Part shown: positions 1 to 13,640 of the stretch, piece after piece
Layout: each line of letters opens with the position of its first letter
Position numbering within the stretch: position 1 is the stretch's first letter
NCBI RefSeq assembly: GCF_003573545.1
Contig: NZ_QWET01000004.1
Location: 310,001-374,000, forward strand
Reading direction: 5' to 3'
Source: Mariniphaga sediminis
GTDB taxonomy: Bacteria > Bacteroidota > Bacteroidia > Bacteroidales > Prolixibacteraceae
DNA length: 64,000 bases
The notes under the pieces: generated by a model
Database searches by the model: none
What the model was told of the DNA's origin: nothing
The model's input: the letters and a program-made list of their open reading frames with translations, nothing else
Program-made: the position numbers and the translations under genes

Positions 1-56
1 TTAAAATCAATCTGCAGGGAAAGGATATTGTTAAAAAGCTTATCCTGAACAAATAG
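1..56 (+). CDS. C-terminal end of a T9SS-tail surface protein (partial, cut by window edge)
   Basis: Only the last 18 codons and the stop are visible. They read KINLQGKDIVKKLILNK, which matches the last residues of the next four genes except for one Ile/Val change. This is the extreme end of a T9SS C-terminal sorting domain, the signal that directs export across the outer membrane. The near-identity, and the terminator that follows, show that a further member of the downstream HYR-protein array lies to the left, so the array has at least five copies. Nothing can be said about the rest of this protein. Confidence 0.85.
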   Translation, partial: KINLQGKDIVKKLILNK

Positions 57-529: not shown

Positions 530-3500
530 ATGAAAAAATTTTACCTTTTCTTTTTATCAATGCTAATTTCAGCAACCAGCCTCTTCGGACAAAATTTGAC
601 TTACTCCATTGAGTTAAGTGATTATTTCGGAGATGGCTGGAATGGAGGGATTATTGATGTAGCAGTAAATGGGAATGTTATTCTGGATAATATAACTCTC
701 CCGTCAGGCCATGGCCCAATAATCTATACTTTTTCTGTAGTTCCGGGAGACACGATTACTACCGATTTTATTGGAGGTTTCTTTATCGGGGAATGTCAAT
801 ACGTTATTAAAAATGAAGAAGGAGTTGTGGTGGTGGAATCCGGGCAAGGGCTAGCTATTCCCGTTAACATTACCTATACGGTCCCGGGATATTCTTGCCC
901 TGATGATATTTTGGTTGACAATGATCCGGGAATTTGTGGAGCAATTGTTAACTTTTCGGTTACTGCACCTGAAAAAGGTAGTATTGTTCAAACCGGTGGA
1001 TTACCTGGTGGCAGTGAGTTTCCGATAGGGACAATGACAAACACATTTGAGTTAACTGATTCTCTTGGGGTTGAAACAACTTGCAGCTTTACGGTTACCG
1101 TTAACGACACCGAAGCGCCGGTATTGGATTGCCCCGAAAACATTGTAATTTCCAACGATCTGGACGAATGTGGCGCGATTGTTACTTTTAGTACACTGAC
1201 TGATGAAATTCTACTGGATGAAGTTCTTCCCGGCAGTCTTTCTGACTGGGAAATTACAGATGAACAGTATAATCCAACATTATCTTATGACGAGATTGTT
1301 TCTCCCTATGACCAAACTACTGCAATTCGAACCAGAGTAGTTGGAAATACTCTTATGATGTGTGAAACGAAAGTTCTTACAAAAACCTACAACACCAGCG
1401 GCAACACCGAAACAACTGACCTTCAGGCCTATCTAGAATTTTCCTCAAATCTAACTACATATAATTTCCCTTATATTATTGTAGAATTGTTAGATGAGAA
1501 TAATCAAAGTCTTGGACAACAAGTTTATTATGGAAAGGATATGGTAGGAAGTTTCTTTCTAAACGCATATATTTTGACAAATCCTGGTAATTATACAGAA
1601 CTTCCTTCTGCAACAGGAGATATGATTCTGGATCTTTCAGCCATTGGAGAGAACATAGACTTTAACAAAATTAGCATTAAACTTTCCAATTATACCTGCA
1701 TAGGAGAAAATTCCATAATCTTCGACCACCTGCGGGTTATTAATGGCGGTTCAGGTAATACTGACCCGGTAGCATCTGATAATTGTTCCGGTGTTCTGGC
1801 CGAAGCCAGTATTCCATCGGGTAGTTTTTTCCCAATTGGCACAACTCCTGTAACCATAACGGCATCCGATGCAGCAGGCAATACAGCAACCTGCATTTTT
1901 ACCGTAACGGTAGAAGATACTGAAGAACCCGTAGCATTATGCAAAGAACAAGGAGAGGAGGGCAAAGCAGCTTACCTAAGAAATTCTGACTTTGACCCAT
2001 GGCAAAACGGAAATGTGATTGGAATGAACAAGGTATTTGGCGAAGGCAACTGGGATGATTTGAGGTTTTCAACCGTTGATCCCGGAATACTCTTTTCCCA
2101 GGAATACAGCTTCGTTTTTATCGATGGCTGTAATGACGGAGCCGCAGCAATGGAAACTTTCATCAATGCCAATACAGCCCAGATGGAAAGCTGGGTAAAT
2201 GATGGAGGTGCCTTATTTTTAAATTCTGCCCCTAACGTAGACGATGGAATGAATTTCGGATTCGGAGGCTTTGAACTGACATTTCCGGAAAGCACCGGTG
2301 AGGCAACAACAAACAATCCGGGCCATCCTATTTTTAACGGTCCCAACCTTCCGGTGGGCACCCAGTGGACAGGAGATTCCTTTGCCCATGCCATTATTAC
2401 TCCCCCGGAACAGAACTATACTTCGCTGATCGTCAACACCTCAAGCCAAAAGGATGTACTGACAGAAATCAAATGGGGCAAAGGCACAGTTCTTTTTGGA
2501 GGGATGACCCTTCCCATTTTCCAGGAACCCGGTTTTGGTTCGGGCCCTCATCCTGAAATCGAGAACCTGCATACTAACATGCTGCAATACCTTGCAGATA
2601 ATGCTGCCAACTACCAAAATTTGATTTTTTATCTGGATGAAAACGGACAAACATCAGTAGCACTGGAGGATATAGATGCAGGAAGCTCCGACAACTGCGG
2701 CATTGCATCAATGGAACTCAACCAGTACGACTTTGATTACAACCACATTGGAGAACAGCAGGTCACTTTAACGGTTACTGACGAAGCAGGAAATTCCTCA
2801 TTCTGTACCTCCATTGTTATGATCGCCGACAGCATTGCACCCGTTGCGGTAGCCAATCCAATAGAAGTGATTCTTGACGAAACCGGAAGGTATGTGCTTA
2901 ATCAAGAAGACCTCGAAGAAATGGCTGCAGGCACCTCCGACAATGCGACTCCGTTTGAAAATATAAAACTGACCGCCTATCCCAAAATATTTGTTTGTGA
3001 CAACGTTGGTGAAACAATGCATGTAAGGCTGACAGTGGAAGATGAAAGTGGAAATATCGACAGGCAGTGGACTACTGTTACAGTGCTTGATACCCTTCCT
3101 CCTGCGGCCCTTTGTCAGGATATCGAAGTATACCTCGACGAAAACGGGGAAGCATCCATTACTCCTGAAGACGTTGCTGTTTCCGGGGAGGATGGCAGCT
3201 ACGATGCCTGTGGTATTGTTTCATTGGAACTGGACAAACAAACTTTCGGGTGTGCCGATGCCGGCCCGAACAATGTGACCGTGACCGTGACCGACCCAAG
3301 TGGAAATACAGGTACCTGTACCGCTGTTGTTACGGTAAAAGATACCTTCCCGCCGGTATTTGAACCGGTAGCTGACATTCAACTGGAAGTTGAGCCGGGT
3401 GTTACCGAAACAGCCATCAACTATCCCGACATTGTGGTAACCGACAACTGTACGCTGGAACCCCAACTTACCGAAGGACTCGGACCAGACGGGTTGTTCC

Positions 3501-4168
3501 CCCTTGGTACAACTACTGAAACCTGGGCTACCAGCGATCCGGCAGGGAACATGGCAACCGTTTCCTTTACCGTAACGGTAACTGCAATTAACAGCCCGCC
3601 GGTACTGGTAAACCCCATTGCCGACCAGGTTGTCAATGCTTCCTATGTACTCAAAGTACCGGTCAGACCGGAGTTGGGTGAAGTGTTCGATGATGTTGAC
3701 GGAGATGAACTGACAATCAGCGCCATGCTCGAAAACGGGGACCCGCTGCCGGCTTGGGCGGAAATGGTGGATGACTCGCTGGTATTTACCCCGCTTATTG
3801 CGGATACTGGTTGTGTTTCCATTATAGTTAAAGCTACCGACCCCGACGGAGCTGCTGCTGCAGACACATTCCAACTCTGCGTGGACGGATATCCGGTAAG
3901 CTCTCCTGCTGTGGATGCAGCAGCCCTGAATGTTACTCTCTATCCTAATCCAACCAGGGACAGGGTAAACATTGAAGTGCAGAACAGCATTTCAGGCCCT
4001 GCTGAAATATCGGTTTATACCATGGACGGGAAACGGGTTTTACAAAGAAACTATACAGACAACCGGCGGATCTCTTTCAGCATGAAAGAGCAGGTGTCGG
4101 GAATGTACTTTGTTAAAATCAATCTGCAGGGAAAGGATATTGTTAAAAAGCTTGTCCTGAACAAATAG
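530..4168 (+). CDS. Secreted multi-domain HYR adhesin-like protein with T9SS sorting domain (array copy A)
   Basis: 1212 residues. A signal peptide (1-20, ends SLFGQ) is followed by an N-terminal beta domain with an acidic DYFGDGWNGG loop (22-118). HYR1 is at 122-192. HYR2 is split: strands at 200-222 and 416-462 flank a foreign domain of about 190 residues. HYR3 is also interrupted: PVALC near 470 is separated from the rest (700-768) by a roughly 215-residue alpha/beta domain resembling ThuA/class I glutamine-amidotransferase folds. More HYR-like domains follow (771-853, 856-937, 941-1018), then an Ig/cadherin-like domain (1020-1122, FDDVDGDELTI) and a T9SS type A tail (1135-1212, LYPNPTRDRV to KKLVLNK). 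The domain calls come from motif reading (DNC, FPxGTT, AxDxxGNxAxC). HYR domains are known adhesion modules; the ligand is unknown. No catalytic site could be assigned to the inserted domains. Confidence 0.85.
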   Translation: MKKFYLFFLSMLISATSLFGQNLTYSIELSDYFGDGWNGGIIDVAVNGNVILDNITLPSGHGPIIYTFSVVPGDTITTDFIGGFFIGECQYVIKNEEGVVVVESGQGLAIPVNITYTVPGYSCPDDILVDNDPGICGAIVNFSVTAPEKGSIVQTGGLPGGSEFPIGTMTNTFELTDSLGVETTCSFTVTVNDTEAPVLDCPENIVISNDLDECGAIVTFSTLTDEILLDEVLPGSLSDWEITDEQYNPTLSYDEIVSPYDQTTAIRTRVVGNTLMMCETKVLTKTYNTSGNTETTDLQAYLEFSSNLTTYNFPYIIVELLDENNQSLGQQVYYGKDMVGSFFLNAYILTNPGNYTELPSATGDMILDLSAIGENIDFNKISIKLSNYTCIGENSIIFDHLRVINGGSGNTDPVASDNCSGVLAEASIPSGSFFPIGTTPVTITASDAAGNTATCIFTVTVEDTEEPVALCKEQGEEGKAAYLRNSDFDPWQNGNVIGMNKVFGEGNWDDLRFSTVDPGILFSQEYSFVFIDGCNDGAAAMETFINANTAQMESWVNDGGALFLNSAPNVDDGMNFGFGGFELTFPESTGEATTNNPGHPIFNGPNLPVGTQWTGDSFAHAIITPPEQNYTSLIVNTSSQKDVLTEIKWGKGTVLFGGMTLPIFQEPGFGSGPHPEIENLHTNMLQYLADNAANYQNLIFYLDENGQTSVALEDIDAGSSDNCGIASMELNQYDFDYNHIGEQQVTLTVTDEAGNSSFCTSIVMIADSIAPVAVANPIEVILDETGRYVLNQEDLEEMAAGTSDNATPFENIKLTAYPKIFVCDNVGETMHVRLTVEDESGNIDRQWTTVTVLDTLPPAALCQDIEVYLDENGEASITPEDVAVSGEDGSYDACGIVSLELDKQTFGCADAGPNNVTVTVTDPSGNTGTCTAVVTVKDTFPPVFEPVADIQLEVEPGVTETAINYPDIVVTDNCTLEPQLTEGLGPDGLFPLGTTTETWATSDPAGNMATVSFTVTVTAINSPPVLVNPIADQVVNASYVLKVPVRPELGEVFDDVDGDELTISAMLENGDPLPAWAEMVDDSLVFTPLIADTGCVSIIVKATDPDGAAAADTFQLCVDGYPVSSPAVDAAALNVTLYPNPTRDRVNIEVQNSISGPAEISVYTMDGKRVLQRNYTDNRRISFSMKEQVSGMYFVKINLQGKDIVKKLVLNK

Positions 4169-4230
4169 CAAAAACAAGTAAATTTTTAATATCGAAAGGG
4201 TGGCCTGTGATTACAGGTCGCCCTTTTTTT
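3067..4230 (+). repeat. Near-identical 3' block of the HYR array, copy A
   Basis: This segment aligns without gaps through the coding part to 6313-7414 (offset 3246) and 9471-10572 (offset 6404), with only scattered base changes. It covers the last HYR domains, the Ig-like domain and the T9SS tail; the 3' UTR and terminator hairpin are repeated too. From about 3591 on it is also shared with the fourth copy (13059-13640). Such similarity over more than 1 kb suggests recent duplication or continuing gene conversion. Confidence 0.9.
4198..4230 (+). terminator. Rho-independent terminator after HYR copy A
   Basis: GGGTGGCCTGT pairs with ACAGGTCGCCC (11 bp, two G-T pairs, loop GATT) and is followed by seven T residues. 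Confidence 0.88.
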
Positions 4231-4320
4231 ATTCTTGTCCGGGCTCATTTAAAACCAAACTTATGGTTGAAAACTTTTAGAATAAAAAATTAACTTTTTC
4301 TTTGAAAAACATAAAAATTA
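4231..4320 (+). repeat. Duplicated upstream block before copy B (partner at 7478-7590)
   Basis: The sequence from CTTGTCCGGGCTCATTT through GGTTGAAAACTTTTAG and CTTTGAAAAACATAAAAA recurs before the next gene, with a short insertion there. A possible promoter lies inside: TTG at 4267-4269, 21 bases, then TAACTTTT at 4291-4298; in the partner copy the TA has become CA. The block shows that the duplicated unit includes the upstream control region, not only the gene. Confidence 0.65.
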
Positions 4321-4414
4321 TTACTTCTTTTATTATTCTGCAATAAGTACCATACGTTCAGAATGATACAAAAACATAAAAATCAACAGTTTATAACCTT
4401 TTAAAAATTACAGA

Positions 4415-7414
4415 ATGAAAAAAAATTTACTTGTTTTTTTTAGTTTGATGTTGCTTGCCCTGTTTGGCTATGCCCAGCAAAAAGCGCTATCGGATTTGTT
4501 TCCCAAAAAAGATGCGCTTCTGAAGAGTGCTTCTCTGGAAGTAACTTCTCAGGTTATTCAAAAATCAGCAGAAACCTCCAATTGTACTATTGATGCCCTA
4601 ATTCTCTTTTCTGACGATGAGGCTACCACTTTACAAACCAATTTAATGGCAACCGGCAAGTTCAATTCAGTCGGTTTGTTTAATCTCAACCTAAATCCAA
4701 ATGTAACGTTAGCCGATATTCAGAATTACGATGCTGTTCTTGTATATTTTAATTACCCAGCCAATTACAGTATTATTAAACAAGCACTTCAGGGTTATAT
4801 GGATTTAGGAGGAGGAGTTGTTACGTGTGTTGCTACAAACTTTGGAAGTTGGAATTTACAACTCGACCCCGGCTATGCCGTGGTTGGCACAGCACCAGGC
4901 TATACCTTCTCCGCACTGTCTTTCGGGACTATTCATGACAGTTCTCATCCTATAATGGAAGGAATTTCAAGCATTACCTTAAGTAATAATGCATACTACT
5001 ACGGCGCCCCCCTAAATCCTGAGGCAACTATCATTGCTGATTGGAACAACGGCGAACCGGCAATAGCTGTAAGGGAGAATATTAGCACAGGAAGCGCCCG
5101 CGCAGCCGATCTGAATTTTTTCCCACACCCATACCATGTTGAGGACCCAAATGCCTATTTATTAATGGCCAATACCTTGCTCTGGACATCACAAAAATGT
5201 GACTGCCCAGACATTGTAGCCGATAACGACCCCGGTACCTGCGGAGCCGTTGTAACCTATGATGCCCCTGCACCGGGAGGCGCCATTGTTACCCAGGTTG
5301 ATAACAGCGGCCTTACCAGCGGAGACCTTTTCCCCATAGGAGAGACTGTACAGGAGTATGAACTCGACTTTGGCCCGGAGGGGAAAGACACCTGCAGTTT
5401 CACCGTAACGGTAAATGACGCGGAATTACCCGTGCCAACCTGCCCGGCAAATGTCACTACAGGAAATGACCCGGGCGAGGACGGAGCCCTTGTTTGGTAC
5501 GCATCCACACAAAACTTTACAGGTCCTTTTGCTCCTGAGAACTGGGACCTGGTAACCAATGGAGGTAATGGGCACATCGATCTTTCTGGCGCCCCAACAC
5601 AGATTACATTGTGGGGTTCTGACGGTAGTGGGGCATCCTCACCGGATACCGAATACAAAATTACTATCCCTTCTGATGGTATGATGTCATTCGACTGGGA
5701 CTATTACACCTACGATTGGGGGCCCAACTATGACCCATTCGGATACAGCATAAATGGTGTATTCACACAGTTGACAGACAATTCAGGGAGTGGTACACAA
5801 AACGGTTCCATTTCCATTCCTCTAAACCAGGGCGACGTATTTGCTTTTGTTGTCCAAACAACGGATGACGCTGTAGGTCCGGGGACCTCAACAATGGTAA
5901 GTTTTAGTTTTGACAGCAACAATATTGATGTCAGCGATAATTGCCCCGGGGCAACCATCGAAGCCGATCACGAAAATGGCTCCTTCTTCCCATTCGGGGA
6001 AACAGTGGTCACTTTAACGGCTACCGATGCATCAGGCAACATGGCCACCTGTAGTTTTACAGTAACAGTGGTAGACATCGATCCCCCCGTTGCTGTTGCC
6101 AATCCAATAGAAGTAGTACTTGACGAAACCGGAAAATATACACTCACTCCCGAAGACCTCGAAGAAATGGCACAGGGATCAACGGATAATTATACTGCTT
6201 CCGGTGACCTGAAACTAAGCGCCTACCCCAAAATGTTTGTTTGCGATAACGTGGGCGAAACAATGCACGTAAGGCTGACCGTAGAGGACGAAAACGGGAA
6301 TACCGATTGGCAGTGGACTACTGTTACAGTGATTGATACCCTTCCCCCTGTGGCCCTTTGCCAGGATATCGAAGTGTACCTCGACGAAAACGGGGAAGCA
6401 TCCATTACCCCTGAAGACGTTGCTGTTTCCGGGGAGGATGGCAGCTACGATGCCTGTGGTATTGTATCATTGGAACTGGACAAAGAAACCTTCGGGTGTG
6501 CCGATGCCGGCCCGAACAATGTAACCATTACCGTGACCGATCCAAGTGGAAACACAGGTACCTGTACCGCTGTTGTTACGGTAAAAGATACCTTCCCGCC
6601 GGTATTTGAACCGGTAGCTGACATTCAACTGGAAGTTGAGGCAGGTGTTACCGAAACAGCCATCAACTATCCCGGCATTGTGGTAACCGACAACTGTACG
6701 CTGGAACCCCAACTTACCGAAGGACTCGGACCAGACGGGTTGTTCCCCCTTGGTACAACTACTGAAACCTGGGCTGCCAGCGATCCGGCAGGGAACATGG
6801 CAACCGTTTCCTTTACCGTAACGGTAACTGCAATTAACAGCCCGCCGGTACTGGTAAACCCCATTGCCGACCAGGTTGTCAATGCTTCCTATGTACTCAA
6901 AGTACCGGTCAGACCGGAGTTGGGTGAAGTGTTCGATGATGTTGACGGAGATGAACTGACAATCAGCGCCATGCTTGAAAACGGGGACCCGCTGCCGGCT
7001 TGGGTGGAAATGGTGGATGACTCGCTGGTATTTACCCCGCTTATTGCGGATACTGGTTGTGTTTCCATTATAGTTAAAGCTACTGACCCTGACGGTGCAG
7101 CTGCTGCAGACACATTCCAACTCTGCGTGGACGGATACCCGGTAAGCTCTCCTGCTGTGGATGCAGCGGCCCTGAATGTTACCCTCTATCCTAATCCAAC
7201 CAGGGACAGGGTAACCATTGAAGTGCAGAACAGCATTTCAGGCCCTGCTGAAGTATCGGTTTTCACCATGGACGGGAAACTGGTTTTACAAAGAAACTAT
7301 ACAGACAACCGGCGGATCTCTTTCAGCATGAGAGAGCATGTTTCGGGGATGTACTTTGTTAAAATCAATCTGCAGGGAAAGGATATTGTCAAAAAGCTTG
7401 TCCTGAACAAATAG
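4415..7414 (+). CDS. Secreted HYR adhesin-like protein with N-terminal ThuA/GATase-like domain and T9SS tail (array copy B)
   Basis: 999 residues. Signal peptide 1-20 (ends FGYAQ). Residues about 58-257 form an alpha/beta domain (IDALILFSDDEA start, DLGGGVVTCV turn, SSHPIMEG) that resembles ThuA-like or class I amidotransferase-like folds; homologous segments occur in copy D and, more distantly, copy A, at other positions. HYR1 is at 264-333. HYR2 is split at 343-362 and 507-552 around a 140-residue insert with an ENWDLVTNGG start and FDWDYYTYDWG core, probably a beta-sandwich. HYR-like domains then run to about 808, followed by an Ig/cadherin-like domain and the T9SS tail (922-999). The last 444 residues correspond residue for residue to the end of copy A. 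Surface-exposed, T9SS-exported; ligand unknown. Confidence 0.85.
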   Translation: MKKNLLVFFSLMLLALFGYAQQKALSDLFPKKDALLKSASLEVTSQVIQKSAETSNCTIDALILFSDDEATTLQTNLMATGKFNSVGLFNLNLNPNVTLADIQNYDAVLVYFNYPANYSIIKQALQGYMDLGGGVVTCVATNFGSWNLQLDPGYAVVGTAPGYTFSALSFGTIHDSSHPIMEGISSITLSNNAYYYGAPLNPEATIIADWNNGEPAIAVRENISTGSARAADLNFFPHPYHVEDPNAYLLMANTLLWTSQKCDCPDIVADNDPGTCGAVVTYDAPAPGGAIVTQVDNSGLTSGDLFPIGETVQEYELDFGPEGKDTCSFTVTVNDAELPVPTCPANVTTGNDPGEDGALVWYASTQNFTGPFAPENWDLVTNGGNGHIDLSGAPTQITLWGSDGSGASSPDTEYKITIPSDGMMSFDWDYYTYDWGPNYDPFGYSINGVFTQLTDNSGSGTQNGSISIPLNQGDVFAFVVQTTDDAVGPGTSTMVSFSFDSNNIDVSDNCPGATIEADHENGSFFPFGETVVTLTATDASGNMATCSFTVTVVDIDPPVAVANPIEVVLDETGKYTLTPEDLEEMAQGSTDNYTASGDLKLSAYPKMFVCDNVGETMHVRLTVEDENGNTDWQWTTVTVIDTLPPVALCQDIEVYLDENGEASITPEDVAVSGEDGSYDACGIVSLELDKETFGCADAGPNNVTITVTDPSGNTGTCTAVVTVKDTFPPVFEPVADIQLEVEAGVTETAINYPGIVVTDNCTLEPQLTEGLGPDGLFPLGTTTETWAASDPAGNMATVSFTVTVTAINSPPVLVNPIADQVVNASYVLKVPVRPELGEVFDDVDGDELTISAMLENGDPLPAWVEMVDDSLVFTPLIADTGCVSIIVKATDPDGAAAADTFQLCVDGYPVSSPAVDAAALNVTLYPNPTRDRVTIEVQNSISGPAEVSVFTMDGKLVLQRNYTDNRRISFSMREHVSGMYFVKINLQGKDIVKKLVLNK

Positions 7415-7477
7415 CAAAAACAAGTAAATTTTTAATATCGAAAGGGTGGCCTGTGATTACAGGTCGCCCTTTTTTTT
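5204..7477 (+). repeat. Long near-identical block shared by copies B and C
   Basis: From TGCCCAGACATTGTAGCCGA at 5204 to the terminator, copy B matches copy C (8359-10634) with few changes. Only the N-terminal module before this point is unrelated between the two. The junction falls exactly at the start of HYR1, as expected for exchange of an N-terminal cassette. Confidence 0.88.
7444..7477 (+). terminator. Rho-independent terminator after HYR copy B
   Basis: Same 11-bp hairpin as after copy A (GGGTGGCCTGT / ACAGGTCGCCC, loop GATT), followed by eight T residues. Confidence 0.88.
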
Positions 7478-7677
7478 GTTCTTGTCCGGGCTCATTTTAT
7501 CAGTGCCCCTTTTTTTATATCAAACCTATGGTTGAAAACTTTTAGAATAAAAAAATCAACTTTTCCTTTGAAAAACATAAAAAATATTATTTTTTTATCC
7601 TCCTCAATAGGCATCACACATTCAGCGTATTGCGACAAATAAAAATCAATAGTTCACAACCTTTAAAAAATTACAGA

Positions 7678-10572
7678 ATGAAAAAAATTCTACTTGTTTT
7701 TCTTACAGTGCAATTTTTGTTGTACAATGCATTTGGTCAGAATGAGAATTCTCCGGGGATTTATATTCCGGGCATTAAAACACTCAAAAAAAGTGCTGTT
7801 ATTCCTCAGGTGCCAGATTCAAACCCAAAAGCCTCTACATCAGGAACTATCGTCCTTAATTTTGAAGGACTGAACAATATGGATCCAATAAATGAATTTT
7901 ACAACGGCGGAACCAGCGGGAGTGGAAACACCGGGACAGATTATGGAATCTCATTTACTGCTGATGCGCTTGCCATTATAGATGCAGATAATGGAGGTTC
8001 GGGAAATTTTGCCAATGAACCCAGTCCAAGTACCATTATGTTTTTTGTAAATAGTGATCCAATACTGAATTTACCTGCCGGGTTTACGACGGGTTTTTCC
8101 TTTTACTACTGCTCTGCCGCTAATGGCGTGGTAGAAATCTATGATGATTTGAATGGCACAGGGAATTTGATAGGCTCATACACTTTTGCTTCTAATAATG
8201 GCATAGGGGCAGGCGACCCTACCGGCGATTTTGCAAATTGGGAGCCTGTAGGAGTACCTTTCAACGGAGTTGGAAAATCTGTTATTTTTGAAGGAGTTGC
8301 CAATCAGTGTGGATTTGATGATATTACCTTCGGAAGCATATCTCCGGGGCAACCTACTTGCCCAGACATTGTAGCCGATAACGACCCCGGTACCTGCGGA
8401 GCCGTTGTAACCTATGATGCCCCTGCACCGGGAGGCGCCATTGTTACCCAGGTTGATAACAGCGGCCTTACCAGCGGAGACCTTTTCCCCGTAGGGGAGA
8501 CTGTACAGGAGTATGAACTCGACTTTGGCGAAGGTGGAAAAGACACCTGCAGTTTCACCGTAACGGTAAATGACGTGGAACCACCGGTGCCAACCTGCCC
8601 GGCAAATGTCACTACAGGAAATGACCCGGGCGAGGACGGAGCCCTTGTTTGGTACGCATCCACACAAAACTTTACAGGTCCTTTTGCTCCTGAGAACTGG
8701 GATCTGGCAACCAATGGAGGTAACGGGTATATCGATCTTTCAGCCGCCCCAACACAGATTACATTGTGGGGTTCCAACGATAGCGGGGCATCCTCACCGG
8801 ATACCGAATACAAAATTACTATCCCCACTGATGGGACGATGTCGTTCGACTGGGACTATTTAACTTTTGATGTAGACGGTCCCTACTATGACCCATTCGG
8901 ATACAGCATAAATGGCGTGTTCACTCAGTTGACAGCGGACAATGGAAGTGATACACAAAACGGCTCCATTTCCATTCCTTTAAACCAGGGCGACGTATTT
9001 GCTTTTGTAGTCCAAACAACTGACGATGGAATGGGACCGGGAACCTCAACGATGGTCAGCTTCAGTTTTGACAGCAACAATATTGATGTCAGCGATAATT
9101 GCCCCGGGGCAACCATCGAAGCCGATCACGAAAATGGCTCCTTCTTCCCATTCGGGGAAACAGTGGTCACTTTAACCGCTACCGATGCATCAGGAAACAT
9201 GGCTACCTGTAGTTTTACGGTAACAGTGGTAGACATCGATCCCCCTGTTGCTGTTGCCAACCCAATAGAAGTAGTGCTTGACGAAACCGGGAAATACACT
9301 CTCACTCCCGAAGACCTCGAAGAAATGGCACAGGGATCAACGGATAATTATACTGCTTCCGGTGACCTGAAACTAAGCGCCTATCCCAAAATATTTGTTT
9401 GCGATAACGTGGGCGAAACAATGCACGTGCGACTGACCGTAGAGGACGAAAACGGAAATACCGACTGGCAGTGGACTACTGTTACAGTGCTCGACACCCT
9501 TCCCCCTGTGGCCCTTTGCCAGGATATCGAAGTGTACCTCGACGAAAACGGGGAAGCATCCATTACCCCTGAAGACGTTGCTGTTTCCGGGGAGGATGGC
9601 AGCTACGATGCCTGTGGTATTGTTTCACTGGAACTGGACAAACAAACCTTCGGGTGTGCCGATGCCGGCCCGAACAATGTGACCATTACCGTGACCGATC
9701 CAAGTGGAAATACAGGTACCTGTACCGCTGTTGTTACGGTAAAAGATACCTTCCCGCCGGTATTTGAACCGGTAGCTGACATTCAACTGGAAGTTGAGGC
9801 AGGTGTTACCGAAACAGCCATCAACTATCCCGACATTGTGGTAACCGACAACTGTACGCTGGAACCCCAACTTACCGAAGGACTCGGACCAGACGGGTTG
9901 TTCCCCCTTGGTACAACTACTGAAACATGGGCTGCCAGCGATCCGGCAGGGAACATGGCAACCGTTTCCTTTACCGTAACGGTAACTGCAATCAACAGCC
10001 CGCCGGTACTGGTAAACCCCATTGCCGACCAGGTTGTCAATGCTTCCTATGTACTCAAAGTGCCGGTCAGACCGGAGTTGGGTGAAGTGTTCGATGATGT
10101 TGACGGGGATGAACTGACAATCAGCGCCATGCTTGAAAACGGGGATCCACTGCCGGCTTGGGCGGAAATGGTGGATGACTCGCTGGTATTTAACCCGCTT
10201 ATTGCAGACACCGGTTGTGTTTCCATTATAGTTAAAGCTACCGACCCCGACGGTGCAGCTGCTGCAGACACATTCCAACTCTGCGTGGACGGATACCCGG
10301 TAAGCTCTCCTGCTGTGGATGCAGCGGCCCTGAATGTTACCCTCTATCCTAATCCAACCAGGGACAGGGTAACCATTGAAGTGCAGAACAGCATTTCAGG
10401 CCCTGCCGAAGTATCGGTTTTCACCATGGATGGGAAACTGGTTTTACAGAGAAACTATACAGACAACCGACGTATCTCTTTCAATATGAAAGAGCAGGTG
10501 TCGGGAATGTACTTTGTTAAACTCAATATCCAGGGAAAGGATATTGTTAAAAAGCTTGTCCTGAACAAATAG
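7678..10572 (+). CDS. Secreted HYR adhesin-like protein with T9SS tail (array copy C)
   Basis: 964 residues from the ATG at 7678. An upstream in-frame TTG (7630) would place 16 residues before an obvious signal peptide (MKKILLVFLTVQ to NAFGQ), and the ATG context TTACAGAATG is identical to copy B, so 7678 is preferred. Residues 57-222 are a beta-rich domain (TIVLNFEGLNNMDPINEFY start, NQCGFDDITFGSI end) not found in the other copies. It resembles the lectin-like sandwich modules common in Bacteroidota secreted proteins, but I cannot name a family. HYR1 starts near 228; HYR2 is split by the same type of 140-residue insert as in copy B; then the common HYR, Ig/cadherin-like and T9SS tail modules follow. 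Its stop, 3' UTR and terminator match copies A and B. Confidence 0.85.
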   Translation: MKKILLVFLTVQFLLYNAFGQNENSPGIYIPGIKTLKKSAVIPQVPDSNPKASTSGTIVLNFEGLNNMDPINEFYNGGTSGSGNTGTDYGISFTADALAIIDADNGGSGNFANEPSPSTIMFFVNSDPILNLPAGFTTGFSFYYCSAANGVVEIYDDLNGTGNLIGSYTFASNNGIGAGDPTGDFANWEPVGVPFNGVGKSVIFEGVANQCGFDDITFGSISPGQPTCPDIVADNDPGTCGAVVTYDAPAPGGAIVTQVDNSGLTSGDLFPVGETVQEYELDFGEGGKDTCSFTVTVNDVEPPVPTCPANVTTGNDPGEDGALVWYASTQNFTGPFAPENWDLATNGGNGYIDLSAAPTQITLWGSNDSGASSPDTEYKITIPTDGTMSFDWDYLTFDVDGPYYDPFGYSINGVFTQLTADNGSDTQNGSISIPLNQGDVFAFVVQTTDDGMGPGTSTMVSFSFDSNNIDVSDNCPGATIEADHENGSFFPFGETVVTLTATDASGNMATCSFTVTVVDIDPPVAVANPIEVVLDETGKYTLTPEDLEEMAQGSTDNYTASGDLKLSAYPKIFVCDNVGETMHVRLTVEDENGNTDWQWTTVTVLDTLPPVALCQDIEVYLDENGEASITPEDVAVSGEDGSYDACGIVSLELDKQTFGCADAGPNNVTITVTDPSGNTGTCTAVVTVKDTFPPVFEPVADIQLEVEAGVTETAINYPDIVVTDNCTLEPQLTEGLGPDGLFPLGTTTETWAASDPAGNMATVSFTVTVTAINSPPVLVNPIADQVVNASYVLKVPVRPELGEVFDDVDGDELTISAMLENGDPLPAWAEMVDDSLVFNPLIADTGCVSIIVKATDPDGAAAADTFQLCVDGYPVSSPAVDAAALNVTLYPNPTRDRVTIEVQNSISGPAEVSVFTMDGKLVLQRNYTDNRRISFNMKEQVSGMYFVKLNIQGKDIVKKLVLNK

Positions 10573-10634
10573 CAAAAACAAGTAAATTTTTAATATCGAA
10601 AGGGTGGCCTGTGATTACAGGTCGCCCTTTTTTT
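8359..10634 (+). repeat. Long near-identical block, copy C partner of 5204-7477
   Basis: Covers HYR1 to the terminator of copy C. The most divergent part against copy B is in the HYR2 insert, around the DYLTFDVDGPYYDPFG segment. Confidence 0.88.
10602..10634 (+). terminator. Rho-independent terminator after HYR copy C
   Basis: Third full-length-gene copy of the GGGTGGCCTGT / ACAGGTCGCCC hairpin, followed by seven T residues. Confidence 0.88.
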
Positions 10635-10847
10635 ATATAATCCTCTTTGATCTATTCCCCAAAAAAATGTGCGAATCATTCCAAACGCGCGGAACAATTT
10701 ATCTTTCAATTTGTTTTACCTTTATACAGAATAAAAAACAAATTCAAACTTTCTAGGATGTACACAGCCACAAATCTTTTACAAAGCCACTTTTATTAAC
10801 AATAATATATCAAACAATTAAAATTTATAACCTTTTATAACATTATT

Positions 10848-13640
10848 ATGAGAAAGATTTACCTGCTTTTATTAATCATGATTTATTCCTCCGCTCTCAT
10901 GGCACAAGACTGCCCCGGAGATATCGTGGTTAACAACGATCCAGGCATCTGCGGAGCCGTCGTAGATTATGCCGCGCCTTCTCCGGCAGGAGCCACCGTT
11001 ACCCAGATTGACGAAAGTGGCCTCACCAGCGGCGACCAGTTTCCTGTCGGAGAAACCCTTCAGGAATATGAACTTGATTACGGCATAGGAGGAAAAGATA
11101 CATGCAGTTTTACCGTTACGGTAAACGATACTGAAGCGCCTTTGCTTAGCTGCCAAAACATTTCAGTTAACAATGATCCGGGCGAGGCCGGGGCTGAAGT
11201 AACCATCCCTGTTCCGTATCATAACAATCCGGCAGTAACAGAGACTGTTGATGTGCTTCTCTTGTATGCTGACTATGATTCGTATGCCCAGGATGTTAAA
11301 GCCAAATTGCTGGGAACGGGAAATTTCTCAACTGTGCATACTTTTAATATAAGTAGCAGAGTTCCTGAGTTAGAAGGCTTGCTGGAATTTGATGTAATTA
11401 TGCTGTGGAGAAATGGATCCTTCCCTGATCCGGAAGCGCTGGGCAATGTTTTAGCCGGGTTTGTGGATGCAGGAAGAGGATTGGTTATGGCCGGCAATGC
11501 CCTCTCCGATATATCTTACCTGGCAGGGGCATTTGAGACAGATGAATACGGAGTTATTGTTCCGGGTTACATTCAATACGGGGGACAAGCATACCTGGGA
11601 GATGTCCATCTTACCAGTCACCCGTTAATGAACAGCATCACATCTTTCGACGGTGGCCTCCTGAGTTACAGGTCGATCTCCAATGCCATTACTCCAGGTT
11701 CCTACAGGGTAGCAGACTGGACCGACGGGAATCCGTTAATAGCTGCAAAAGAAAATGTTGGTGCATCCAATGCCCGGCGCGTAGACCTCAACTTCTTTCC
11801 CCCTACCGTAACCGATCATGGAAGGGTCCCCTGGGATGTAAATACTGATGGCGATTTAATTATGGCCAACGCCATTCTATGGGTTGCCGGTGCACCCATT
11901 GCCTACGACAATTGCGGCCCCGTGGAATTTTCCAATAATTTTAATGCATCTACTTCCCCCTCCGGATATTATCCGATAGGTTCCACATCTGTTACACTAA
12001 ATGCTACCGATGAAGCGGGGAACACTTCTACATGCAACTTCACCGTTACAGTGGAAGATATTGACCCTCCTGTTGCTATTTGTAAAAATATTTCTGTTGT
12101 TCTCGATGAAAACGGACAGGTCACAATTGAGGGATCCGATGTGGACGGTGGGAGTACCGATAATCATGCTATTGCAACGTATGAATTAGATACGAATACT
12201 TTTGATGACAGCATGCTGGGAGAAAACACCGTGGTTTTAACAGTTATTGATGAAGCAGGAAATAGTTCTACGTGTACAGCGACAGTTCAGGTTTTTGACA
12301 ATAATCCTCCTGACATTGTTGTTCAACCAATCGAAGTAGCTCTGGATAATACCGGAAATTATGAATTGACCCTGGAAGATCTGAAGGAAATGGCTGAAGG
12401 TACAACTGACAACGGCACATCTTTCGACAATCTGAAATTTAGCGCTTTCCCAACAACATTTGCTTGCGAAAATGTGGGTGAAGAAATAAACGTAAGACTA
12501 ACGGTAGAAGATGAAAGTGGGAACAGTGACAAAAAATGGACCTCAGTCACCGTAGTTGATATTATTCCACCAACTGTTGTTTGCCAAAACATTGAAGTGT
12601 ATCTGGATGAAAATGGGGAAGCTTCCATTACACCTGAAGAAATAAATGTAAGTGGAGAAGGTGGAAGCTACGACGCATGTGGTATTGCGTCACTCGAACT
12701 GGATAAAATGGCTTTTGGCTGTGAAGATACAGGAGAGAATAATGTAGTCCTTTCTGTTACTGACCACGGTGGTAACACCGGCTCCTGCACTGCAATTGTT
12801 ACAGTAAAAGATACCTTTCCGCCAGTATTTGAACCGGTGGCTGACATAGTTGTGGAAGTAGAAACGAATATCACCGAAACAACTATTGATTATCCGAATA
12901 TTGTAGTGACAGACAACTGCTCCGTTACTCTGGAGCTTACAGAGGGTTTGGGTCCCGATGGGGTATTTCCCGTTGGTACCACAACTGAAACCTGGGCTGC
13001 CAGCGATCCAGCCGGGAACAGCATGACCCTTACATTTACCGTGACTGTTACACCGGTCAACAGCCCGCCGGTACTGGTAAACCCCATTGCCGACCAGGCT
13101 GTCAATGCTTCCTATGTACTCAAAGTACCGGTCAGACCGGAGTTGGGTGAAGTATTCGATGATGTTGACGGGGATGAACTGACAATCAGCGCCATGCTCG
13201 AAAACGGGGACCCGCTGCCGGCTTGGGCGGAAATGGTGGATGATTCACTGGTATTTACCCCGCTTATTGCAGATACTGGTTGTGTTTCCATTATAGTTAA
13301 AGCTACCGACCCCGACGGTGCAGCTGCTGCAGACACATTCCAACTCTGCGTGGACGGATACCCGGTAAGCTCTCCTGCAGTGGATGCAGCGGCCCTGAAT
13401 GTTACCCTCTATCCTAATCCAACCAGGGACAGGGTAAACATTGAAGTGCAGAACAGCATTTCAGGCCCTGCTGAAATATCGGTTTTCACCATGGACGGAA
13501 AACGGATTTTACAAAGAAACTATACAGACAACCGGCGGATCTCTTTCAGCATGAAAGAGCATGTTTCGGGAATGTACTTTGTTAAACTCAATATGCAGGG
13601 AAAGGAAATTGTTAAAAAGCTTGTCCTGAACAATAAATAG
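10848..13640 (+). CDS. Secreted HYR adhesin-like protein with GATase-like domain nested inside HYR2 (array copy D)
   Basis: 930 residues. Signal peptide 1-19 (ends SALMAQ), then directly HYR1 (21-92). HYR2 begins at 101-120 (CQNISVNNDPGEAGAEVTI) and resumes at 353-402 (YDNCGPVEF to CNFTVTV). Between them lies a roughly 215-residue alpha/beta domain (VDVLLLYADYDSYAQ, AGRGLVMAGNAL, SHPLMNSI, RRVDLNFFPP) homologous to the N-terminal domain of copy B. HYR3 is at 405-482, then the shared modules and the T9SS tail ending KKLVLNNK. The part encoded before about 13059 is clearly diverged from copies A-C, whereas the Ig-like domain and tail after it are nearly identical to them. No Cys nucleophile typical of amidotransferases was recognised, so the inserted domain is probably not catalytic in that way. 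Confidence 0.85.
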   Translation: MRKIYLLLLIMIYSSALMAQDCPGDIVVNNDPGICGAVVDYAAPSPAGATVTQIDESGLTSGDQFPVGETLQEYELDYGIGGKDTCSFTVTVNDTEAPLLSCQNISVNNDPGEAGAEVTIPVPYHNNPAVTETVDVLLLYADYDSYAQDVKAKLLGTGNFSTVHTFNISSRVPELEGLLEFDVIMLWRNGSFPDPEALGNVLAGFVDAGRGLVMAGNALSDISYLAGAFETDEYGVIVPGYIQYGGQAYLGDVHLTSHPLMNSITSFDGGLLSYRSISNAITPGSYRVADWTDGNPLIAAKENVGASNARRVDLNFFPPTVTDHGRVPWDVNTDGDLIMANAILWVAGAPIAYDNCGPVEFSNNFNASTSPSGYYPIGSTSVTLNATDEAGNTSTCNFTVTVEDIDPPVAICKNISVVLDENGQVTIEGSDVDGGSTDNHAIATYELDTNTFDDSMLGENTVVLTVIDEAGNSSTCTATVQVFDNNPPDIVVQPIEVALDNTGNYELTLEDLKEMAEGTTDNGTSFDNLKFSAFPTTFACENVGEEINVRLTVEDESGNSDKKWTSVTVVDIIPPTVVCQNIEVYLDENGEASITPEEINVSGEGGSYDACGIASLELDKMAFGCEDTGENNVVLSVTDHGGNTGSCTAIVTVKDTFPPVFEPVADIVVEVETNITETTIDYPNIVVTDNCSVTLELTEGLGPDGVFPVGTTTETWAASDPAGNSMTLTFTVTVTPVNSPPVLVNPIADQAVNASYVLKVPVRPELGEVFDDVDGDELTISAMLENGDPLPAWAEMVDDSLVFTPLIADTGCVSIIVKATDPDGAAAADTFQLCVDGYPVSSPAVDAAALNVTLYPNPTRDRVNIEVQNSISGPAEISVFTMDGKRILQRNYTDNRRISFSMKEHVSGMYFVKLNMQGKEIVKKLVLNNK
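13059..13640 (+). repeat. Near-identical 3' block in copy D
   Basis: Similarity to copies A-C jumps to near-identity at AACAGCCCGCCGGTACTGG (NSPPVL), the start of the Ig/cadherin-like domain. The abrupt change within one gene is what a gene-conversion boundary looks like. Confidence 0.85.

Follow-up and report, generated by a model that had tools for sequence, protein, structure and literature searches.

The question raised by this locus of Mariniphaga sediminis is why the HYR domains of several tandemly encoded paralogues are broken by other domains, and whether the broken pieces still make up a single domain. In the window, by which we mean the whole analysed stretch of 64,000 nucleotides, a sequence-only reading had recognized an array of four such genes, and all four were confirmed: gene A (530..4168; 1212 aa), gene B (4415..7414; 999 aa), gene C (7678..10572) and gene D (10848..13640; 930 aa), which lie, like every feature given below, on the forward (+) strand. 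However, the window begins inside the array, which consists of five genes. The fifth paralogue, E0, is located upstream (L009:6814-10056, equivalent to G000:C34:306814-310056), and its last 56 bases are positions 1..56 of the window. The C-terminal half of the protein, comprising HYR-like domains and an Ig/cadherin-like domain, is common to all five. A to D end in a T9SS type A sorting domain (TIGR04183, 48.6-51.7 bits against a curated cut-off of 23), and the C-terminal end of E0 was found by alignment to be the same sequence as these tails. The array is flanked by pnp upstream and by rpoC, rpoB, ribosomal protein genes, nusG and tuf downstream, neighbours that proved uninformative as a clue to function.

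The split HYR2 domain

HYR2 of A to D is split at one site, just before the DNC motif, as had been read from the sequence. In A, the N-half (1118..1207, residues 197-226) and the C-half (1769..1918, residues 414-463) enclose a payload of 187 aa (1208..1768, residues 227-413). The corresponding segments of B are 5429..5509 (residues 339-365) and 5921..6076 (residues 503-554) around a payload of 137 aa (5510..5920, residues 366-502), those of C are 8584..8664 and 9079..9234 around 138 aa (8665..9078), and those of D are 11139..11219 (residues 98-124) and 11892..12059 around 224 aa (11220..11891, residues 125-348). Both halves were matched by the HYR HMM in each protein: residues 197-228 (model 1-35) and 411-463 (model 25-81) in A, 339 to about 365 and 503-554 (model 27-81) in B, 304 to about 330 and 469-520 (model 27-81) in C, and 98-124 (model 1-28) and about 349-404 in D. 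The insert sizes of roughly 190, 140 and 215 residues that had been estimated beforehand agree with these lengths, and the same HMM confirmed that HYR1 is uninterrupted in every copy.

The halves were then scored singly and joined with a second HYR profile from which the array's own domains had been left out. Rejoined, they reached 82.3 (A), 74.5 (B), 74.5 (C) and 76.9 bits (D), values of a full-length HYR, and the host domain of each protein thus matches the HYR family (PF02494) over its full length once the halves are joined. In each of A to D the joined score exceeded those of all 200 controls with a shuffled N-half (top control 70.9 bits) and all 200 controls with a payload piece of equal length (top control 69.2 bits).

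The distribution of cysteines is in line with these scores. Among 329 intact HYR domains, Cys5 and Cys73 are both present in 220, both missing in 100 and discordant in 9, and among 28 split HYR domains from the array and other genomes our script scored 20 with both, 6 with neither and 2 as discordant, these counts including paralogues and hence not being fully independent. In the 2 discordant cases (L039 and L065) both cysteines are present in the sequence but shifted in the alignment, so that all 28 agree. Separate halves would predict frequent discordance, and the concordance is therefore evidence for one domain. Judged by profile scores and cysteines, the flanks of HYR2 are shown to form one single domain; that they might be separate complete domains, the outcome that had been named beforehand as speaking against nesting, is ruled out by the joined-score controls together with the cysteine concordance.

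The cysteine pair of the first and last strands spans the payload in HYR2 of all four proteins and is also present in HYR3 of A and E0, and a disulfide would connect the first and last HYR strands across the payload. Residues 258-560 of B were modelled with AlphaFold from a 12-row alignment (mean pLDDT 82.5, pTM 0.57), and the model places HYR2 strands at 90-93 and 100-103 ahead of the payload and at 257-260, 266-280 and 286-296 behind it. This strand inventory of the split HYR2 equals that of the intact HYR1, flank packing being judged by the inventory alone, and from it we infer a closed HYR fold in atomic detail. A folded model of D was set aside because of its low confidence (pLDDT 51).

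Payloads, a second nested site and the history of the array

The nested domains belong to different types. The A payload lacks a Pfam match; it was absent from 395 other Bacteroidota genomes searched and is confined to the genus, where it was found elsewhere only in Mariniphaga anaerophila (L052). The payloads of B and C, which are 88% identical, have no Pfam match either and do not belong to a CBM family by sequence. The model of the B payload nevertheless resembles the beta-sandwiches of CBM35, CBM6 and CBM4 (Foldseek E-values of about 1e-4; target-normalised TM of about 0.5 against CBM35), and at identities of about 10-18% the term CBM-like is a statement about fold. PDB sequence searches with the payload profiles gave only chance-level matches. 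The payload of D had been described as ThuA/GATase-like. It is about 33% identical to the ThuA-like domain that stands un-nested at the N terminus of B (4580-5197, residues about 56-261), but D does not match PF06283 (ThuA). Of the ThuA-like copies, it is the N-terminal domain of B that comes closest to this family (29.6 bits against a gathering score of 33.4; E-value 1e-6), the others giving no match.

Besides the HYR2 payloads of A to D there is a second nested payload, which the sequence-only reading had missed. In A and E0, a ThuA-like domain sits in HYR3 between PVA[LV]CK and the LDENG strand, after the first cysteine. In A, the N-terminal stub PVALCK, assigned by the cysteine pair rule, covers 1928..1945 (residues 467-472), the payload 1946..2617 (residues 473-696) and the remainder of HYR3 2618..2830 (residues 697-767). 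D carries the same HYR3 without a payload (12069..12299) and thus represents the empty version of the site that is filled in A and E0. The joined score of the six-residue stub does not beat the controls; since such a stub is too short for a profile, nesting in HYR3 rests on the cysteine pair and the empty site of D. E0, in which HYR1 is intact and HYR2 absent, has another ThuA-like domain un-nested at its N terminus. Across the array, payloads thus occupy three positions: the N terminus, HYR2 and HYR3.

Towards their ends the tails of the array genes reach about 89-100% identity, and identity changes along them in abrupt steps. Between E0 and A, B or C, identity rises from about 60-70% to 95% near tail nucleotide 240, and between D and the other genes the rise, near tail nucleotides 720-840, is from about 70% to 90-95%. 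Such steps are the pattern expected from gene conversion, pointing to a process that would homogenise the 3' halves of A to D and E0 while the heads differ. From HYR1 onwards B and C share 95% identity, and they also have their upstream DNA and signal peptide in common, whereas their N-terminal payloads (within 4415-5197 in B and 7678-8350 in C) are unrelated. On this comparison, the difference is a recent head exchange, located between the shared signal-peptide region and HYR1. The nested payloads are older than this exchange because the A-type and the B-type are both kept in M. anaerophila (L052 and L054, respectively). We could reject a cassette system operating on DNA at the HYR2 site, since a BLASTN comparison of A, B/C and D showed general homology but no further flanking DNA in common where the payloads begin and end. 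E0, A, B and C are each followed by nearly the same hairpin with a T-run behind it (GGTGGCCTGT..ACAGGTCGCCCTTTTTT), probably a terminator that was duplicated along with the genes; the one behind D is different. In the Mariniphaga locus L054 a run of N lies inside the gene, within about 4945-5460, and L052 is a 3340-base contig that starts in the tail of one copy, which suggests that the array there was collapsed or masked in the assembly.

Split HYR domains in relatives and comparable systems

A search for further split HYR domains, as the sequence-only reading had suggested, revealed them in no fewer than 14 further Bacteroidota genomes and at four loop positions, the one before DNC being the commonest, although the loci were partly chosen for half-HYR matches and the counts are hence not frequencies. 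About ten other genomes also use the pre-DNC loop, for several payloads that are unrelated to one another: the B-type payload is nested there in L054, L055, L065, L038 and L039, and other payloads in L030, L053, L069, L076 and L032. The B-type payload is also nested after DNC (L066) or in a later HYR loop (L061, L063), and occurs free-standing or between other domains (L056-L060, L022-L025). A ThuA-like domain is located after DNC in L071, and propeller-like or lamin-tail-like payloads occupy the loop after an F-x-C motif in L067, L069, L071, L077 and L084. In L069, L071, L077 and L084 the hosts of these F-x-C-loop payloads are LDENG-type HYR domains, a site that is unused in the window. The idea of an HYR socket thus holds in so far as unrelated domains are nested in one HYR2 loop and this recurs in unrelated genomes, but 'fixed' was too strict a word. 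A single fixed socket is ruled out by the lack of HYR2 in E0, the HYR3 site in A and E0, the un-nested N-terminal payloads and the two further loops used in relatives.

It had also been claimed that no such socket was known. Yet split Ig-like supports have been documented in RTX adhesins, where the split domain projects a ligand-binding domain whose two termini lie on the same side, the first section of the split domain being one strand and the second the bulk (PMC10865825), and where the payloads include CBMs (PMC12077191). What stands of the claim is narrower: among the open-licence PMC papers searched we found no description of split HYR domains. The split-socket idea has thus been published, and HYR proteins as hosts have apparently not been described before.

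As in the RTX adhesins FrhA, MpIBP and AhLap, the Ig-like domain is discontinuous here around an inserted domain, and the layout of one strand followed by the payload is shared by HYR3 of A and E0. However, RTX adhesins are of giant size, leave the cell by type I secretion and contain Ca-binding nonapeptide repeats, whereas the array proteins have 930-1212 aa and T9SS tails, their host is an HYR domain with a covarying cysteine pair, and their HYR2 is split after two strands. Pfam and NCBIfam scans detected no RTX families in the array proteins, which have the T9SS type A tail instead. Because the secretion type and the RTX repeats are lacking, we do not claim membership as RTX split domains. 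With the HYR proteins (PF02494) the array shares a bona fide HYR host, but HYR is normally continuous, while the payload hosts described here are interrupted at four loop positions. D2/D3 of the pilus adhesin RrgA and the hybrid/betaI pair of integrins are further cases in which a loop of an Ig-like domain accommodates a guest that faces outward. In those proteins host and guest families, secretion and anchoring differ from those of the HYR array.

A probable display role and its alternatives

We consider it likely that these are T9SS-exported proteins in which split Ig-like HYR supports project binding domains sideways. The five genes would encode surface-attached modular proteins with a constant stalk of HYR and cadherin-like domains, a sorting tail and a variable head. 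In this model, the chain would form the first one or two HYR strands, the guest domain (a CBM-like beta-sandwich or a ThuA-like alpha/beta domain) would bud out, and the chain would then come back and add the missing strands of the sandwich, whose first and last strands may be locked together by a disulfide. The guest would be projected sideways off the stalk and would most probably bind surface ligands such as glycans. Diversity in the array would arise from tandem gene duplication and from the swapping of payloads in the heads, with homogenisation keeping the tails alike. By analogy with the RTX adhesins, and in view of the CBM-like payload of B and the export tails, HYR is probably a support for binding domains here.

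We regard it as unlikely that HYR loops merely tolerate insertions, with payloads acquired by neutral recombination and nested without a special display role. This would fit the use of four different loop positions across relatives, the un-nested occurrence of the same payload families at N termini or flanked by other domains, and the fact that the payload recently exchanged between B and C is the N-terminal and not the nested one. Selection is nonetheless suggested by the repeated use of the pre-DNC loop for unrelated payloads with reading frame and cysteine pair kept, and by the conservation of the A-type nested payload in the congener M. anaerophila (L052). It is similarly improbable that the nested ThuA-like domains are enzymes on a scaffold, carbohydrate-active or amidotransferase-like, rather than binding domains. 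The match of the N-terminal domain of B to Pfam ThuA, just under the curated cut-off, is in favour of an enzyme, as is the resemblance of the D model to flavodoxin and Rossmann folds, but this model is of low confidence, and one alignment of the five ThuA-like copies, inspected by eye, revealed no conserved nucleophile elbow. Finally, an N-half that is a short linker or degenerate repeat next to a truncated HYR would agree with the scores of the halves alone (9-13 bits for the N-halves; 58.6-61.1 bits, above the Pfam PF02494 cut-off, for the C-halves), but this very improbable reading is largely refuted by joined scores above every control, the cysteine concordance in split HYR domains and the strand inventory of the B model.

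Such a display role may extend beyond the array. It is quite possible, though we would not presume it, that HYR serves Bacteroidota surface proteins in general as a socket with several payload sites, that recurring uncharacterised domains fill a few of its loops, and that split HYR domains indicate ligand-binding domains in hundreds of T9SS proteins that lack annotation. Family searches have difficulty in detecting split domains, since neither half scores well and no name exists for the payload. Should split HYR domains mark ligand-binding domains, in the way of the split Ig domains of RTX adhesins, they would provide a computational handle on the ligands of many HYR surface proteins and a natural insertion site for display in a scaffold that is probably disulfide-locked. 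The genome that carries the array also encodes a separate protein of 1361 aa (L012:361-4446, G000:C34:81360-85445), which resembles the array proteins in its arrangement of HYR domains and sorting tail but in which HYR is intact and the head is unlike theirs.
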